64,000 bases of DNA from NCBI RefSeq assembly GCF_012530535.1, contig NZ_CP051299.1, positions 1,984,001-2,048,000 of the forward strand, written 5' to 3'. Origin of the DNA: Microcella flavibacter (lineage in GTDB: Bacteria; Actinomycetota; Actinomycetes; Actinomycetales; Microbacteriaceae). The translations under genes were made by a program, and so were the position numbers. Below the pieces are notes generated by a model, which worked only from the letters and a program-made list of their open reading frames with translations, did no database searches and had not been told where the DNA came from. Each line of letters starts with the position of its first letter. Position 1 is the stretch's first letter. Shown piece by piece: positions 57,310 to 63,968 of this stretch.

Positions 57310-59172
57310 TCAGGCGAGCGCGGGGGCGAAGGCCTCCCGCGCCTCGCGCCTCTGCGCCCGCCCGACCGCGACGCGGGCGACGAGCACGGAGGCGAGCCCG
57401 AGCACGAGCATCGCGCCGACCATGGCGACGATGCGCGCCGCATCGCCTCCCGCGAAGAGCGCCTGCAGCCCATCGACCGCGGCCCGCAGCGGCAGCACCC
57501 CGCTCAGCGCCGGGAACGGGTCGGCGAGCGCCGCCACCGGGATGATGCCGCCCGTGACGATGATCTGCAGGTCGAGCAGCAGCAGCGAGACGACGAGCCC
57601 GCCCCGGCCGAGCGCCAGGGTGAGCGCCGCGTGCAGCGCCGTGAAGGCGAGCGCGATGAGCGCCGTGAGGGCGAGGGTCGCCGGCAGCAGCATCCACTCG
57701 ATGCCGGCGGCGGCGTGCACGAGCAGGCTGACGAGCACCGCCTGGGCGAGCGCGATGAGGGATGCCCGACCGAGGCTGCGCCGCAGCACGACCCCGGCGC
57801 CCGTCGCCGAGCCCACCACGGCCCCGCCCGCGGGTCGCAGGGCCAGGAACGTCGCGAGCGCGCCGACCCACAGGCCGATCGGCACGAGCGTCGAGGCGAT
57901 GACCTGCCCGACCCCGTCGATCGCGTTGACGCGCTGGGTGTCGACCGCGACGGGGTCGAGGGCGACGGCTGAGCCGGTGGCGCCCGGCACCTGCTCGGCG
58001 CCGTCGGCGAGTCCGGTGGCGAGCTCCTCGGCGCCGGCCGCGAGCTCGCGCGAGCCCGCGGCGGCCTCGCCCGCGCCGGTGCCGAGGGCGCCGAGCCCGT
58101 CGGCGAGCGCATCGGCGCCCGAGACGAGCGACGGGCCGCCGGCGGCGAGCTCGCGCGCGCCCGCGGCGCTCTGCGCGATGCCCGACTGCACGCCGTCGAT
58201 CGCGGGGCCCATCTGCCCGTTCAGCTGCGCGGCACCGCCGGAGAGCTGCTGCGCGGCGGCGACGAGCGCCTGGTAGGCGCCCTGCTGCTCGGGCGGCAGC
58301 CCCGAGGCGGCGATCGCCGGGGCGAGGGCCTGCAGCCCGCCCGCGAGCTGCGCGCTGCCGCCGGCGAGGCCGCCGACCGCGCCCGTGAGCTGGTCGAGCC
58401 CTGCGGCGCCCGACTCGAGCTGCCCGAGCCCGGAGGAGAGGGAGGAGACGCCGCCCGTGTAGGCGCCGAGCCCGTCGGCGAGGCTGCGCGCGCCGGCCGT
58501 CGACTGCTCCGCGCCGACGCGCAGGGCGTCGAGCCCGGTGCCGAGCTCGGTGTTGCCGTCGCCGATCTGCGCCGCGCCGTCGGAGGCGTCGCCGAGGGCC
58601 GAGCCGAGCTGATCGATGCCGCCGAGCAGCCCGTCGACGTACTGCTCGGTGACGACGTCGCCGAACTGGGCCGCGAGGCTCTCGCCGACGCTCTGCACGA
58701 CCGAGCCGGCGAGGTAGCTGTGCGCGTCGTCGGTCTCGACCTCGAGCTGCGCCTGCACCGCCTCGGGCGTGCCGATGGTCAGCACCGAGGCGGAGAAGTC
58801 GTCGGGGATGGTGACGACCGCGTAGACCTCGCCCGCGGCGAGCGCCGCCTCGGCCTCCTCGGCGTTGGTGACGCGCCAGTCGAAGCCGGCCGCCTCGGGC
58901 GCGGTGAGCTCGGTGACGAGCTGGCGCCCCGCGAAGACGACCTGCTCCTCGCCGTCGGGGCCCGTGGTGGTGAGCAGCTCGTCCTCGTTCACGACGGCGG
59001 CGGGGATGCGGTCGAGCGCGGCCTCGCCGTCGTCGCCGATCGCCGCGAGGGCGAGGCCGACGAGCGCGAGCGGCACGAGCAGGGCGCCCGCGATCACGGC
59101 GCCGCGGCCGCGGCCGGGGCGACGGCGGGCTGCAGAGGGCGCGGCGGCGGGGGATGCGGATGCTGCGGTCAT
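57310..59172 (-). CDS. YhgE/Pip-family membrane protein
   Basis: 620 aa. One N-terminal span (GAVIAGALLVPLALVGLALAAI), a large extracellular part (45-400), then about five C-terminal spans (IASTLVPIGLWVGALATFLAL, LIALAQAVLVSLLVHAAAG, TLALTALIALAFTALHAAL, GLVVSLLLLDLQIIVTGGIIP, IVAMVGAMLVLGLASVLVARV). The central part is full of short heptad-like repeats (SLADGL, GLGQLESG, ELATGL) that predict a long coiled coil, as in YhgE/Pip/EsaA proteins. These have an ABC-2-permease-like topology. The ATG overlaps the MMPL stop by 4 nt. It is coupled to the MMPL gene and TetR. Confidence 0.9.
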   Translation of the reverse strand: MTAASASPAAAPSAARRRPGRGRGAVIAGALLVPLALVGLALAAIGDDGEAALDRIPAAVVNEDELLTTTGPDGEEQVVFAGRQLVTELTAPEAAGFDWRVTNAEEAEAALAAGEVYAVVTIPDDFSASVLTIGTPEAVQAQLEVETDDAHSYLAGSVVQSVGESLAAQFGDVVTEQYVDGLLGGIDQLGSALGDASDGAAQIGDGNTELGTGLDALRVGAEQSTAGARSLADGLGAYTGGVSSLSSGLGQLESGAAGLDQLTGAVGGLAGGSAQLAGGLQALAPAIAASGLPPEQQGAYQALVAAAQQLSGGAAQLNGQMGPAIDGVQSGIAQSAAGARELAAGGPSLVSGADALADGLGALGTGAGEAAAGSRELAAGAEELATGLADGAEQVPGATGSAVALDPVAVDTQRVNAIDGVGQVIASTLVPIGLWVGALATFLALRPAGGAVVGSATGAGVVLRRSLGRASLIALAQAVLVSLLVHAAAGIEWMLLPATLALTALIALAFTALHAALTLALGRGGLVVSLLLLDLQIIVTGGIIPVAALADPFPALSGVLPLRAAVDGLQALFAGGDAARIVAMVGAMLVLGLASVLVARVAVGRAQRREAREAFAPALA

Positions 59173-62147
59173 GAGCGGGTGTCCTTCGCCGTGGGGGCCG
59201 CCGCGCGGGCGAGCGGGGCGGGATCGGGGTGCGGGGCGGGATCGGGGTGCGGGGCGGGATCGGATGCCGGCGCCGAGTGCGCGGGCGCCGCGCCCGCCGA
59301 GCGGCGCACCGGCGAGAGCCGGGCGACCGTCGTGCCGGGCCGGGGCTCGCCGCCCTCGGGGCGACCCCAGATGCGCACGGTGCCGCGCGGGGCGAGCGCG
59401 ACCACGAGGGCGTCGACGAGGTCGGTGCCGGTCTCGTCGAGCGCGTCGTCGCGATGGTCGAGCACGATCACCGGCGTGCGGTCGATGGTCGCGACGGCGG
59501 CCAGCAGCAGGGCGCGAGTGCGCCCGTCCAGCGCCGCGACCGGCGCGGTGGGGTCGCGCAGCGCGCGAGCGCTCGCCGCGGCCTGCTCCCCCATCCCGCG
59601 CAGCGCGGCGTCGAGCTCGGCGAGCCAGTCGCGGGTGAGCTGCGCGCGGCGCGGGCGACCCGAGGCGAGCGCGAGCCGCTCGGCGACGAGCGTTCGCACC
59701 GTCACCTCCGGGGCGATGCGGTCGCCGCCGACGTCGACCAGGGCGACCCGGCGGGCGGCCCGACCGGCCTCGGAGGGCAGCAGCGCGCCCGCCACGAGCG
59801 CGCGCCCGGCCGCCGGCTCCACGTGCCCGGCGAGGGTCGCGGCGGCGAGGCGGCGCAGAGCGGAGGGGCCGGCGAGGTGCACGCGATCGCCCGCGGCGGC
59901 GTGCAGCTCGAGAGAGGCATCCACCCCCTGGAGCGCGAGGCCCTCGGTGACGACGACGCCCTGCCGACCGGATGCCCACTCCACGTCGTCGCGGTGGTGG
60001 CGCAGCTTCTCGCCCTCGATGTCGAGGTCGGGCAGCGCCCGGTCGAAGGAGCGCGGGAACCACCATCCCGCCCGGCCGAACAGCGTCATGAGGGCGGGGC
60101 CGAGCGTCATGCGCACGACGAAGGCGTCGACCGCGATGCCGACGGCGAGGCCGAGCGCGATGGGCTTGATGACGCCCGCCCCCTCGGGCACGAACGCCGC
60201 GAAGACGAACACCATGATGAGCGCGGCCGCCGTGACGACGCGGGCGCCGTTCGCGAAGCCGTCCTCGATGGAGCGCTTCGCGTCGCCCGTGCGCACGAAC
60301 TCCTCGCGCATGCCCGAGACGAGGAACACCTCGTAGTCCATGGCGAGGCCGAACAGCACCGCCATGAGGATGATCGGCATGAAGCTCAGGATCGGCCCCG
60401 ACTCGGCCTGCAGCAGCTCGGCGCCCCAGCCCCACTGGAACACCGCGACCGTCACGCCCATGCCGGTGCCGACCGAGAGCAGGAACCCGAGGGCCGCCTT
60501 GACCGGCACGAGCACCGAGCGGAAGACCGCCATCAGAAGCACGATCGAGAGCCCCACGACGATGAGGGCGAAGGGCACGAGCGCGTTCGTCAGCCGGGTC
60601 GAGATGTCGATGCCGACGGCCGTGACGCCCGTGACCGCGAGCGGCGTGCCGTACTCGTCCTCGATGTCGCCGGCGATCGCGCGGATGTCGGCGACCACCT
60701 GCTTCGTCTCGGGCGCATCGGGGGCGAACTCGGGCGCGACCTGCAGGATCGCCGTCTCGAGCCCCGGCGAGGGGATGCCCTGGCCGACGCTCGCGACGCC
60801 GTCGACCTGCTCGAGCTCGCCCCGGATCGCGTCGAGATCCTCGAGCACATCGACGGTCTGCGTGATGTCGAGCGTGACCAGGAGCGGGCCCGCGGTGCCC
60901 GGACCGAACGCGTCCGCGATGAGGTCGTAGGCCTCGCGCTGGGTCGAGCCGGCCGGCTCGCTGCCGCCGTCGGGCAGGTTGAGGTCGAGGGAGAAGGTCG
61001 GGATCGAGAGCGTGCCGAGCACGGCGACGACCGCGACGGTCGTCACGATCGGGCGCTTCATGACGCCGCGCACCCAGCGCCGGCCCATGGTCGGGCGCGA
61101 GGAGGCGACCGGATGCGCGCGCGTCCAGGCGCGCGAGCCCTCCTTCGGCGCGAGCTTCGCCCCGGCGAGGCCGAGCATCGCCGGCACGAGGGTGACGGCC
61201 GCGGCGATCGCGATGAACACCGCGACGGCGGCGCCGACGCCCATGACGGAGAGGAACGGGATGCCGACGACGAGGAGGCCGAGAAGGGCGATGATCACGG
61301 TCACGCCGGCGAAGACGACGGCGCTGCCGGCGGTGCCGACGGCGATCGCGGCCGACTCCTCCGGGTCCTCCCCGCGGGCGAGCTGCCCGCGGTGCCGCGA
61401 CAGGATGAAGAGGGCGTAGTCGATGCCGACCGCGAGGCCGATCATGAGCGCCAGCAGGGGCGCCGAGCTCGAGACGGGCGTCACCGCGGTGAGCGCGATG
61501 ATCGCGCCCATGACGATCGCGACGCCGACGAGCGCCGAGACGAGCGGCATGCCCGCGGCGCGCAGCGAGCCGAAGGTGATGACGAGCACGACGCCGGCGA
61601 AGACGACGCCGAGCACCTCGATCGGCGTGATGCCCACCGTCGTGTCCTGGAAGACCTGCCCGGCGAACTCGACCCGCGAGTCGAGGCCGTCGCCGCTCGC
61701 GGTCAGCGCCTCGAGCGAGTCCTCCGAGATGTCGGTGGCGACGCCGTCGAGCTGCACCTGCACGATCGCGACGGTGCCGTCGTCGCTCACCTGGTCGCCG
61801 GCGAACTCGTCGAACGGCCCGAGCACGTTCGCCACCTGGTCGACGTCGCCGAGGCGCTCGATGAGCTGGTCGATCTCGTCCCGCACGGCGGGATCGTCGA
61901 CCCGTTCGCCCTCCGGCGCGACGACGACGGCCTGCGCGCTCGCGCCCGACACCTCGGGGAACAGCGCGTCGAGGGTGTCGAGCGCCTCCTGCGACTCGGT
62001 GCCGGGGATGGTGAAGGTCTCGTCGAACTGCCCGCCGAGGGCCAGCCCGCCGCCGAGCACGGCGACGACGACGAGCGCCCACGTGGTGATGACGAGCCAG
62101 GCGCGCCGGTAGGCGGCGCGACCGAGACGGTAGAGGAGGGTGGCCAC
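59169..62147 (-). CDS. MMPL-family transporter fused to a degenerate ABC-ATPase-like domain
   Basis: 992 aa. Residues 1-716 are an MMPL (RND-type) transporter: N-terminal span (RAWLVITTWALVVVAVLGGG), two periplasmic loops, and two blocks of spans (ALLVVGIPFLSVMGVGAAVA...; IILMAVLFGLAMDYEVFLVSG). Residues about 728-930 look like an ABC ATPase that lost its chemistry: GDRVHLAGPSALRRLAAATLAG (757-778) stands where Walker A should be but has no GKS/T, LDGRTRALLLAAVATIDRT (about 873-891) is at the signature position, and PVIVLDHRDDALD is Walker-B-like with His instead of Glu. The tail 947-992 has DPAPHP repeats. It overlaps the YhgE gene; TetR is 10 nt upstream. Confidence 0.85.
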   Translation of the reverse strand: MATLLYRLGRAAYRRAWLVITTWALVVVAVLGGGLALGGQFDETFTIPGTESQEALDTLDALFPEVSGASAQAVVVAPEGERVDDPAVRDEIDQLIERLGDVDQVANVLGPFDEFAGDQVSDDGTVAIVQVQLDGVATDISEDSLEALTASGDGLDSRVEFAGQVFQDTTVGITPIEVLGVVFAGVVLVITFGSLRAAGMPLVSALVGVAIVMGAIIALTAVTPVSSSAPLLALMIGLAVGIDYALFILSRHRGQLARGEDPEESAAIAVGTAGSAVVFAGVTVIIALLGLLVVGIPFLSVMGVGAAVAVFIAIAAAVTLVPAMLGLAGAKLAPKEGSRAWTRAHPVASSRPTMGRRWVRGVMKRPIVTTVAVVAVLGTLSIPTFSLDLNLPDGGSEPAGSTQREAYDLIADAFGPGTAGPLLVTLDITQTVDVLEDLDAIRGELEQVDGVASVGQGIPSPGLETAILQVAPEFAPDAPETKQVVADIRAIAGDIEDEYGTPLAVTGVTAVGIDISTRLTNALVPFALIVVGLSIVLLMAVFRSVLVPVKAALGFLLSVGTGMGVTVAVFQWGWGAELLQAESGPILSFMPIILMAVLFGLAMDYEVFLVSGMREEFVRTGDAKRSIEDGFANGARVVTAAALIMVFVFAAFVPEGAGVIKPIALGLAVGIAVDAFVVRMTLGPALMTLFGRAGWWFPRSFDRALPDLDIEGEKLRHHRDDVEWASGRQGVVVTEGLALQGVDASLELHAAAGDRVHLAGPSALRRLAAATLAGHVEPAAGRALVAGALLPSEAGRAARRVALVDVGGDRIAPEVTVRTLVAERLALASGRPRRAQLTRDWLAELDAALRGMGEQAAASARALRDPTAPVAALDGRTRALLLAAVATIDRTPVIVLDHRDDALDETGTDLVDALVVALAPRGTVRIWGRPEGGEPRPGTTVARLSPVRRSAGAAPAHSAPASDPAPHPDPAPHPDPAPLARAAAPTAKDTRS
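59213..59263. repeat. 18-bp tandem repeat in the MMPL gene tail
   Basis: GCGGGGCGGGATCGGGGT at 59213, 59231 and (partial) 59249, coding on the minus strand for DPAPHP repeats in the C-terminal tail. A length-variable, probably unstructured segment. Confidence 0.85.
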
Positions 62148-62156
62148 GGGATGCTC

Positions 62157-62741
62157 CTAGGCGGTTTCAGCGGAGGGGGCGGTCGGGGTGCGGTGGTCGT
62201 GCGGCACGAGCAGCTCGAGCATCACGTCGATGAGGGCCTGCCGGATCTCGTCGACGGGCGGCTCGTCGATGCCGAGCTCCTCGGCTGCGGCGAGCGAGTA
62301 GGCCGCCCCGCCGAAGGCGACGCCGAGGCGCAGCTTCTCGGCTGTGGAGGTGCCGTAGCTGTGGAAGAAGCTCGCGAGCCGGTTCATGAGCGCCTGCGCG
62401 CGGTCGATGGCGGGGGTGTCGACGATCGTCGCCTGCTGGTTGATGACGAGGTGCACCTGCTGGCGGTGGGCGAGCAGGAAGTCCACGAAGCCGAGGATGA
62501 ACGCCTCGCGGTTCTCGACCGAGAAGCCGGCGTCCTCCGCCGTCGCGACGAGGCCGTCGAGGGCGTCGAGCGCGGGGCCGATGGCCGCCTCGAGCAGCTG
62601 CTCCTTCGAGGAGTAGTGGTAGAGCACGCTCGCCTTCGAGGTACCGGCCAGGTCGGCGATGCGCTGCAGCGAGGTGGCGGCGTAGCCCGCGGCGGCGAAC
62701 TCGGCGAGCGCGATCTCGCGCAGGTCATCGTGTCGGGACAT
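62157..62741 (-). CDS. TetR-family transcriptional repressor
   Basis: 194 aa. Helix-turn-helix at about residues 20-50: EFAAAGYAATSLQRIADLAGTSKASVLYHYSSKEQLL, the classic TetR form; the C-terminal ligand domain is unassigned. TATTCT (62754-62749) ends 7 nt before the ATG and there is no ribosome binding site, so it is probably leaderless. Two 14-bp palindromes lie immediately upstream. It is upstream of and on the same strand as the MMPL and YhgE genes, 9 nt apart, so it should control the operon and itself. Confidence 0.93.
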   Translation of the reverse strand: MSRHDDLREIALAEFAAAGYAATSLQRIADLAGTSKASVLYHYSSKEQLLEAAIGPALDALDGLVATAEDAGFSVENREAFILGFVDFLLAHRQQVHLVINQQATIVDTPAIDRAQALMNRLASFFHSYGTSTAEKLRLGVAFGGAAYSLAAAEELGIDEPPVDEIRQALIDVMLELLVPHDHRTPTAPSAETA

Positions 62742-62756
62742 GCCCTCGAGAATACT

Positions 62757-62770
62757 TGACCGATCGGTCA
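62757..62770. promoter_or_regulatory. TetR operator 1: TGACCGATCGGTCA
   Basis: Perfect 14-bp palindrome directly upstream of the -10 (62754-62749) of the tetR-MMPL-yhgE transcript, where binding would block RNA polymerase. Confidence 0.75.
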
Positions 62771-62774
62771 GTCC

Positions 62775-62788
62775 TGACCGCTCGGTCA
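62775..62788. promoter_or_regulatory. TetR operator 2: TGACCG-CT-CGGTCA
   Basis: A second copy with perfect 6-bp arms and CT at the centre, 18 bp from the first, so both lie on nearly the same face of the DNA and could bind cooperatively. It covers the expected -35 region. Confidence 0.72.
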
Positions 62789-63127: not shown

Positions 63128-63760
63128 TCAGGAGCGCGAGGCGAACGCCATCGCGGCTCCGAGCCCGATGAGCGCGACGCCGCCCGAGGCGCGCAGGCCG
63201 CTCAACCGACCGGGGTTCGTCGCGAACCAGGCCCGGGCCGATCCGGCGGCGACGCCGTAGAGCCCGTCCGAGACGATGCCGATCGCGAGGAAGATCGCGC
63301 CGAGCGTCAGCATCTGCACGACGACGCTGCCGGCCGCGGGGTCGACGAACTGCGGCAGGGCCGCGGCGAAGAACACGATCGTCTTCGGGTTCGTGATGCC
63401 GACCAGGAAGCTCTCGCGCAGCAGTCGGCGCACCGTCGGCGCCCGCTCGTCGAGGTCGGCCGCGGGCATGTCGCGCCGGTGCCGGATCGACTGGATGCCC
63501 AGCCACACCAGCACGAGGGCTCCGACGATCTTCAGCGCGAGGAACAGCACCTCCGACTGCGCGACGAGCACGCCGAGCCCTGCCGCCACCGCGACGATCT
63601 GGAGCGCGCCGCCGCACGCCGCCCCGAGCACGCTGATCAGCGCGCCCCGGGTGCCGTGCGCGAGGGCCCGCCCGATGACGAAGAGCACCCCGGGCCCGGG
63701 CACGACGATGATGATGAGCGCCGCCACGAGGAAGGCGAGCAGTTCGGGGAGCGGCACCAC
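63128..63760 (-). CDS. LysE-family transporter (amino-acid/threonine-type exporter)
   Basis: 210 aa, six-span exporter of the LysE/RhtB superfamily: LLAFLVAALIIIVVPGPGVLFVIGRALAHGTRGAL, LKIVGALVLVWLGIQSI, and FLVGITNPKTIVFFAAALPQFV. VPGPG and NPK are hallmarks. The start is set at GTG 63760, giving the usual length, with TAGCAT ending 8 nt upstream; the longer frame begins with an Arg-rich stretch that is not part of the family. Substrate unknown. Confidence 0.88.
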   Translation of the reverse strand: MVPLPELLAFLVAALIIIVVPGPGVLFVIGRALAHGTRGALISVLGAACGGALQIVAVAAGLGVLVAQSEVLFLALKIVGALVLVWLGIQSIRHRRDMPAADLDERAPTVRRLLRESFLVGITNPKTIVFFAAALPQFVDPAAGSVVVQMLTLGAIFLAIGIVSDGLYGVAAGSARAWFATNPGRLSGLRASGGVALIGLGAAMAFASRS

Positions 63761-63858
63761 GAAGTGCGATGCTACCGGCCGCGGACGGGCCGCACGGCGA
63801 CGCCGGCCACGGTCGCGCGACGAGGACAGCCGACAGCTGAGGTCGGTGAACACAGAGA

Positions 63859-63893: not shown

Positions 63894-63895
63894 CG

Positions 63896-63968
<73 letters not shown>

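Follow-up and report, generated by a model that had tools for sequence, protein, structure and literature searches.

Residues ~729–930 of an MMPL-family protein (P0001) of Microcella flavibacter are confirmed, by sequence profile and alignment, as a degenerate ABC nucleotide-binding domain (NBD), fused to the end of an MMPL core and encoded immediately before a gene for a YhgE/Pip protein (P0002). We think it reasonably likely that this TetR-regulated operon makes a proton-driven MMPL transporter whose catalytically dead ABC domain docks on, and couples it to, the YhgE/Pip protein.

Organization of the operon

The window, the whole stretch of DNA analysed, is 64,000 nucleotides of contig NZ_CP051299.1. 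The features below are given with window coordinates and the evidence for each.

57310–59172, strand −, YhgE/Pip protein (P0002), 620 aa; TIGR03061/TIGR03062
59169–62147, strand −, MMPL protein with pseudo-NBD tail (P0001), 992 aa, GTG start; MMPL (Pfam), 292.6 bits
59213–59263, strand −, 18-base tandem repeat, 2.8 copies, 100% matches; repeat search
59358–59963, strand −, pseudo-NBD, degenerate ABC ATPase domain, residues 729–930; profile, alignment and Foldseek
59448–59471, strand −, former Walker B, VIVLDHRD, Asp kept and catalytic Glu gone; alignment
59517–59531, strand −, former signature motif, LDGRT replacing LSGGQ; alignment
59847–59870, strand −, former Walker A, GPSALRRL, Arg765 at the lysine position; alignment
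59997–62147, strand −, MMPL/RND core, residues 1–717; Pfam, ends of plasmid MMPL alignments, GIDY and MDY motifs
62157–62741, strand −, TetR-family regulator (P0003); TetR_N (Pfam), 49 bits
62757–62770, no strand, putative TetR-type operator 1, perfect palindrome TGACCGATCGGTCA; palindrome pattern
62775–62788, no strand, putative TetR-type operator 2, TGACCGCTCGGTCA, one central mismatch; palindrome pattern

The MMPL and YhgE/Pip genes overlap by 4 bases (ATGA), and the TetR gene lies 9 bases upstream of the MMPL gene. A preliminary description of this DNA had drawn the system at 59169–62788 and named YhgE/Pip as the product of the next gene; P0002 indeed passes both NCBIfam models (TIGR03061, 113.1 bits, cut-off 96.15; TIGR03062, 105.7 bits, cut-off 102.2), and its gene lies outside that interval. 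The same description spoke of two strong TetR operators. Both palindromes are present in front of the TetR gene, 18 bases apart, and the chance expectation of the pattern is 0.01 per window, but the second has a central mismatch and only the first can be called perfect. With a TetR_N domain and palindromes (putative operators) near its own gene, P0003 appears to be a member of the TetR class, and a homologue is present in 51 of the 60 loci chosen from the same family. Gene spacing and palindromes together suggest that all three genes would be under TetR control.

The 18-base repeat encodes the Pro/Asp-rich C-terminal end of P0001, beyond the pseudo-NBD. The middle of the YhgE gene (58013–58168) is made of imperfect 21-base repeats, and NCBIfam recognizes xxxLxxG heptads (TIGR03057) in P0002. 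Upstream of the operon lie a gene for a membrane protein that by eye resembles a LysE-type exporter (63128–63853) and one for tRNA-Lys (63895–63968).

The MMPL core and the YhgE/Pip protein

Two MMPL stretches of P0001 are matched by PF03176, at 292.6 bits against a gathering score of 20.5. In MMPL transporters Asp-Tyr motifs in TM4 and TM10 form the proton relay, a role known from MmpL3. These motifs read GIDYALF and MDYEVF in the window, and all 75 of the fused MMPL cores have the patterns GIDYxLF and MDY[EQ]xF. To judge from its sequence, the MMPL part of P0001 looks like a complete proton-driven pump. A similar MMPL protein occurs in 253 plasmid records, none of which covers 80% of P0001.

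The membrane part of P0002, described earlier as ABC-2-like, scores 52.7 bits against the Pfam family ABC2_membrane_3 (cut-off 31.6); it resembles ABC-2 permeases, and docking of an NBD is its predicted function. The match of P0002 to EsaA of type VII secretion is weak (38.4 bits, cut-off 122), and solved structures include no relative at E<=0.01. One paper describes the N-terminal domain of YhgE/Pip proteins as having no known function (PMC4999554).

The tail of P0001 is a degenerate ABC nucleotide-binding domain

Used alone, the window domain had no Pfam match at E<=1. NCBIfam returned a marginal match to NodI (E 6e-4, tail residues 43–221), the PDB gave weak and unrelated matches to the single sequence (best E 0.011), and a single-sequence scan of genome contigs found one partial relative, L001. 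Profile A1 was built from 42 of 61 collected tails, the window and 41 relatives. It matched 210 PDB sequences at E<=0.1, and the best 60 of the 210 are all ABC proteins; the top match, EcfA1 (PDB 9kym, E 1.9e-7), spans positions 3–201, the whole length of the domain. With profile A2, made from 8 further tails of a short form, 390 PDB sequences were matched at E<=1, and the best 60 of these 390 are again all ABC proteins. A structure prediction for the tail, proposed earlier as a check, pointed the same way. The AF2 model, built on a two-row alignment and used as weak support, is of low confidence (pLDDT 63, pTM 0.61) and weak in residues 1–32; a Foldseek search with it returned only ABC proteins among the best 50 of 464 matches, the best having E 0.019 and probability 1.00, with none below E 0.001 among the matches listed.

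Individual A1 members rarely reveal this ancestry: PF00005 is matched by just 2 of the 42 at E<=0.01, and DUF2064 by one. The order of ABC motifs is plainer in L038 and L050, which have SGEPGERRLLAATLGGRLDPVAG, then LPQLERA, then PVVMLDQLDAF. The fused domain of L212, whose Walker A reads GPSGSGKT, reaches 61.3 bits with PF00005 (cut-off 25). When aligned with A1 by hhalign (194 columns, probability 98.6%, E 1.2e-15), it places Arg765 of the window beneath the Walker A lysine. Because MMPL-fused relatives in other families keep an intact Walker A, and one of them, L212, passes ABC_tran, the link between the tail and ABC proteins is closed. Homology is significant over the whole domain (profile A1, L212 and Foldseek), which makes the tail an ABC NBD by descent. 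The marks of a functional ABC ATPase are absent from the window, which has GPSALRRL at Walker A, LDGRT in place of LSGGQ, and LDHRD without the Walker B glutamate. The preliminary description, which by eye had assigned about 200 residues to the ABC order and declared the key residues lost (no GK[ST], LDGRT, LDHRD), is thus upheld on both counts, as the motifs fall in the correct alignment columns. With all three catalytic motifs gone, the tail is expected to be dead, incapable of ABC-type ATP hydrolysis.

Distribution of the fused domain and of its stand-alone relatives

When 299 genomes of the same family were searched with the tail at E<=0.001, 164 genomes and 63 of 85 genera were matched; the query takes in the end of the MMPL core, and some matches are in short frames, which could represent truncated genes or ordinary ABC ATPases. 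The MMPL core is present in all of the 60 family loci, a subset of the 164 matching genomes picked by the tail. Together with 15 further fused loci these make 75, in 74 of which the profiles recognize the tail, and by its sequence the fusion extends beyond the window's family. In fused loci picked by the tail, YhgE is the next gene on the same strand in 60 of 60 and a further 9 of 9 cases. Tail-less MMPL loci, in comparison, have YhgE in 0 of 26 cases, with 2.5–5.2 kb of downstream sequence in view except at L281 (0.3 kb). The tail-less L257 (also L277) has another C-terminal extension, of 144 residues past the MMPL core; on sequence, therefore, other domains are added at the same place in MMPL relatives.

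A search with TIGR03061 found YhgE in 161 of 248 genomes of the order and 81 of 246 genomes of the class. From these matches 60 Actinomycetes loci were chosen, mostly one or two per genus. The preliminary description had suggested looking for relatives with the parts as separate genes, and these are common: the gene directly upstream of YhgE is a stand-alone ABC-like gene in 46 loci, an MMPL gene in six and neither in eight. The six MMPL proteins comprise four with a short tail (L133, L152, L154, L155), one with the full domain (L212) and one, L213, whose tail the profiles do not recognize. At L125, L126, L153 and L159 there are paired YhgE genes, with no ABC-like partner or MMPL detected beside them. 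A named example of the stand-alone pair, found in the plasmid search, is WP_068523519.1 of Tsukamurella tyrosinosolvens, annotated ‘hypothetical protein’ and followed by YhgE/Pip; a match of that search in Streptomyces sp. NBC_00525 proved to be an ordinary ABC operon.

The association also holds in the reverse direction. Of 64 domain matches, 49 are in genomes that were also searched for YhgE (the 15 elsewhere were left out), and 47 of these 49 immediately precede YhgE; the other two have the lowest scores. Profile A1 scores stand-alone YhgE partners at up to 112 bits. The stand-alone set was first gathered without frames bearing LSGGQ/E, and later without frames above 85 bits with a canonical-ABC profile; nevertheless, among the unfiltered matches listed for the 60 YhgE loci, no LSGGQ/E-bearing gene lies directly upstream of YhgE. 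L225, a candidate stand-alone partner, and the long frames L218 and L219, candidate fusions, are canonical ABC genes and were not counted.

Stepwise loss of the catalytic motifs

Walker A is lacking in 69 of the 75 fused loci and complete in five (L212, L214, L215, L216 and L217, from two families of other orders); in one the domain was not detected. Arginine occupies the P-loop lysine position in 42 of 42 A1 domains, and Arg765 is among the only three invariant columns (R, G, L); the Walker B Asp is nearly invariant. In the window itself the P-loop is one residue shorter and its later glycines are gone. Since five fused proteins in two other families keep an intact Walker A, it was probably after the fusion, in the window's lineage, that the P-loop lysine disappeared, as far as these sequences tell.

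Stand-alone domains were counted in 62 loci (54 of the 60 YhgE loci and 8 later picks by domain), 8 of which had no such domain or gene. Among the remaining 54 the P-loop reads GxxGxGK[ST] in 9, has Arg for the lysine in 27 and His in 5, and is none of these in 13. Four stand-alone proteins tested against PF00005 scored 33.9–46.4 bits (cut-off 25). None of the 74 fused domains and none of the 54 stand-alone ones has LSGGQ, so that every domain seen lacks the signature motif. The five partners with His for the P-loop lysine (L127, L140, L141, L157 and L209) have GHGHT or GTGHT, and several of them have an LTLPDRHGG-like motif at Walker B; such sequences perhaps reflect a new, kept function rather than decay.

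A short form is found in 17 fused loci (L082–L084, L086, L088–L091, L133, L152, L154, L155, L220, L221, L227, L228 and L230). It has lost the region from the first lobe to Walker B, that is, the helical part and the signature region, and these loci still have YhgE as the next gene.

Origin of the fusion

In a tree of the domain, 102 YhgE-type domains were separated from 13 canonical ABC domains with a split support of 99. The fused domain is, by sequence, kin to the stand-alone ABC-like YhgE partner of Actinomycetes and probably descends from it. In a tree of MMPL cores, 37 of 37 fused cores fell in one branch (support 99) together with one tail-less member, L237, from the Actinomyces oris plasmid NZ_CP116225.1, which has a long branch and no YhgE beside it. 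A fused-only clade was marginally rejected by an AU test on the MMPL cores (p-AU 0.0475). In the free (quick) domain tree the fused domains did not come together. A tree in which they were held together was slightly better than the free one (p-AU 0.57), and the domain tree therefore neither proves nor rejects one fusion. These trees would be read most simply as one fusion event, with tail and YhgE later lost together in L237; the domain was probably fused to MMPL once, and two fusions are possible.

The preliminary description proposed that an ABC-type exporter, ATPase plus YhgE permease, had been absorbed into an MMPL machine. Absorption of an ATPase–YhgE pair fits well, because tail and YhgE travel together and the nearest kin of the tail lie directly upstream of YhgE. 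What was absorbed, however, was no ordinary ABC exporter: LSGGQ is already absent from the stand-alone partners (present in 0 of 54), most of which are also without the P-loop lysine.

Discussion

We favour docking and coupling as the best-supported role of the tail, because what the tail has retained is the association with YhgE, a protein whose membrane part is like that of ABC-2 permeases. The pseudo-NBD, at the cytosolic C-terminus of the MMPL protein, would dock on the cytosolic face of YhgE much as an NBD docks on an ABC-2-type permease, and would so hold MMPL and YhgE in one complex. The proton gradient, acting through the MMPL relay, would supply the energy in place of ATP, and TetR would release the operon upon binding the exported compound or a related signal. 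MmpL proteins carry lipids or amphiphiles, and by analogy the cargo is likely to be one or the other. An NBD normally grips its permease with the stretch that runs from the first lobe to Walker B. The short form is without that region and is still adjacent to YhgE, and therefore docking, if correct, cannot need this groove in all members. Counting against the docking model are the 8 of 60 YhgE loci with neither an ABC-like gene nor MMPL upstream. The sole experimental clue found is a hint from Saccharopolyspora hirsuta given cholesterol: F1721_04135 (YhgE/Pip) was up 3.82-fold and F1721_04140 (MMPL) 3.33-fold (PMC9782250, Table 2), the two being neighbours to judge by locus tag.

The main rival to docking and coupling is that the degenerate domain is a ligand sensor, binding a nucleotide, a phosphorylated lipid or a small ligand and gating MMPL, while YhgE acts alongside without contact through the domain. 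The invariant arginine at the P-loop lysine position (42 of 42) and the near-invariant Walker B Asp suggest that a polar site has been kept, and half of the stand-alone relatives (27 of 54) have a complete P-loop with Arg for Lys. In the window, however, the loop is short by one residue and no longer has its later glycines, even more is missing from the short form, and ligand sensing alone leaves the association of tail with YhgE unexplained. We regard a sensor as unlikely, although it deserves real weight.

The tail might instead be a functionless relic, kept since truncation would harm the end of the gene or its translational coupling to YhgE. Stepwise motif loss and the one tail-less protein within the fused clade are what such decay would produce. 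For dN/dS nine pairs were run, of which L035/L036 was too similar to inform; in the 8 informative pairs tail dN/dS is 0.04–0.52, with dS ~1 or more in some of them. These values are near those of YhgE and 0.7 to 4.3 times those of the core. In 6 of 8 pairs the ratio is higher for the tail than for the core, most markedly in L060/L063 (0.286 vs 0.067), as would be expected of a relic. Nevertheless, dN/dS is well below 1 in 8 of 8, which indicates that the tail sequence is under purifying selection; the tail is still recognizable in 74 of 75 fused loci, and R, G and L columns are invariant over 42 members. We consider a mere relic improbable.

Some ABC exporters combine a degenerate NBD with an active one, and such asymmetric pairs provide a precedent for the dead domain forming a half-site in trans with a separate active NBD, in a complex driven by ATP. 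In the window's genome the other matches to A1 are true ABC ATPases at 27.9 bits or less, with no second domain of the family; there is only one YhgE; and, as noted, no LSGGQ/E-bearing gene stood directly upstream of YhgE among the matches listed for 60 loci. An ATP-driven complex of this kind seems very improbable to us. That the tail has some other fold and resembles ABC domains by chance, as the lack of a Pfam match to the window domain alone, the weak and unrelated single-sequence PDB matches (best E 0.011) and the weak start of the AF2 model (residues 1–32) might suggest, is scarcely credible and is already contradicted by profiles A1 and A2, Foldseek, the PF00005 score of L212 and hhalign.

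Within docking and coupling, a bolder version can be put forward tentatively, and we hold it to be possible though doubtful: an ATPase of a YhgE/ABC-2 system would have turned into a passive coupling domain on an RND pump, relaying proton-driven movements of MMPL to YhgE. If so, this would be an RND–ABC hybrid machine and a third means of driving an ABC-type membrane protein, and the stand-alone partners with Arg for Lys would have stopped hydrolysing ATP without any fusion.

Two transporter superfamilies with supposedly different energy sources are linked here through surviving stages, from canonical ABC proteins to stand-alone partners that lack LSGGQ and keep an intact P-loop, to those with Arg for Lys, to MMPL-fused domains with an intact Walker A and to MMPL-fused domains with no catalytic motif. 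The YhgE/Pip family gains a partner and with it a role that can be tested, and annotations of ‘MMPL family transporter’ may hide a second, unannotated domain. A search of the open-access literature, outside whose coverage most subscription papers fall, found no description of an MMPL–ABC fusion or of the stand-alone partner family.

MMPL proteins, ABC domains and YhgE are each known families, to which the three parts belong by descent. P0001 shares with MmpL3-type MMPL/RND exporters (best match PDB 7nvh, E 7.6e-53) a core of ~700 residues, two MMPL stretches and the relay motifs; it differs in adding an ABC-derived C-terminal domain and in its pairing with YhgE. The alignments of the best 25 of the 253 plasmid MMPL proteins likewise stop at P0001 residues 715–729. 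With ABC NBDs (PF00005; nearest solved structure EcfA1) the tail shares the order of Walker A, helical, signature and Walker B regions and aligns over its whole length, whereas it lacks GK[ST], LSGGQ and the catalytic Glu and is covalently joined to an RND transporter. The Tsukamurella-type partner belongs to the same domain family and occupies the same place directly before YhgE, but as a separate gene and without MMPL. P0002, finally, differs from the YhgE/Pip family as known in being paired with an MMPL fusion protein.
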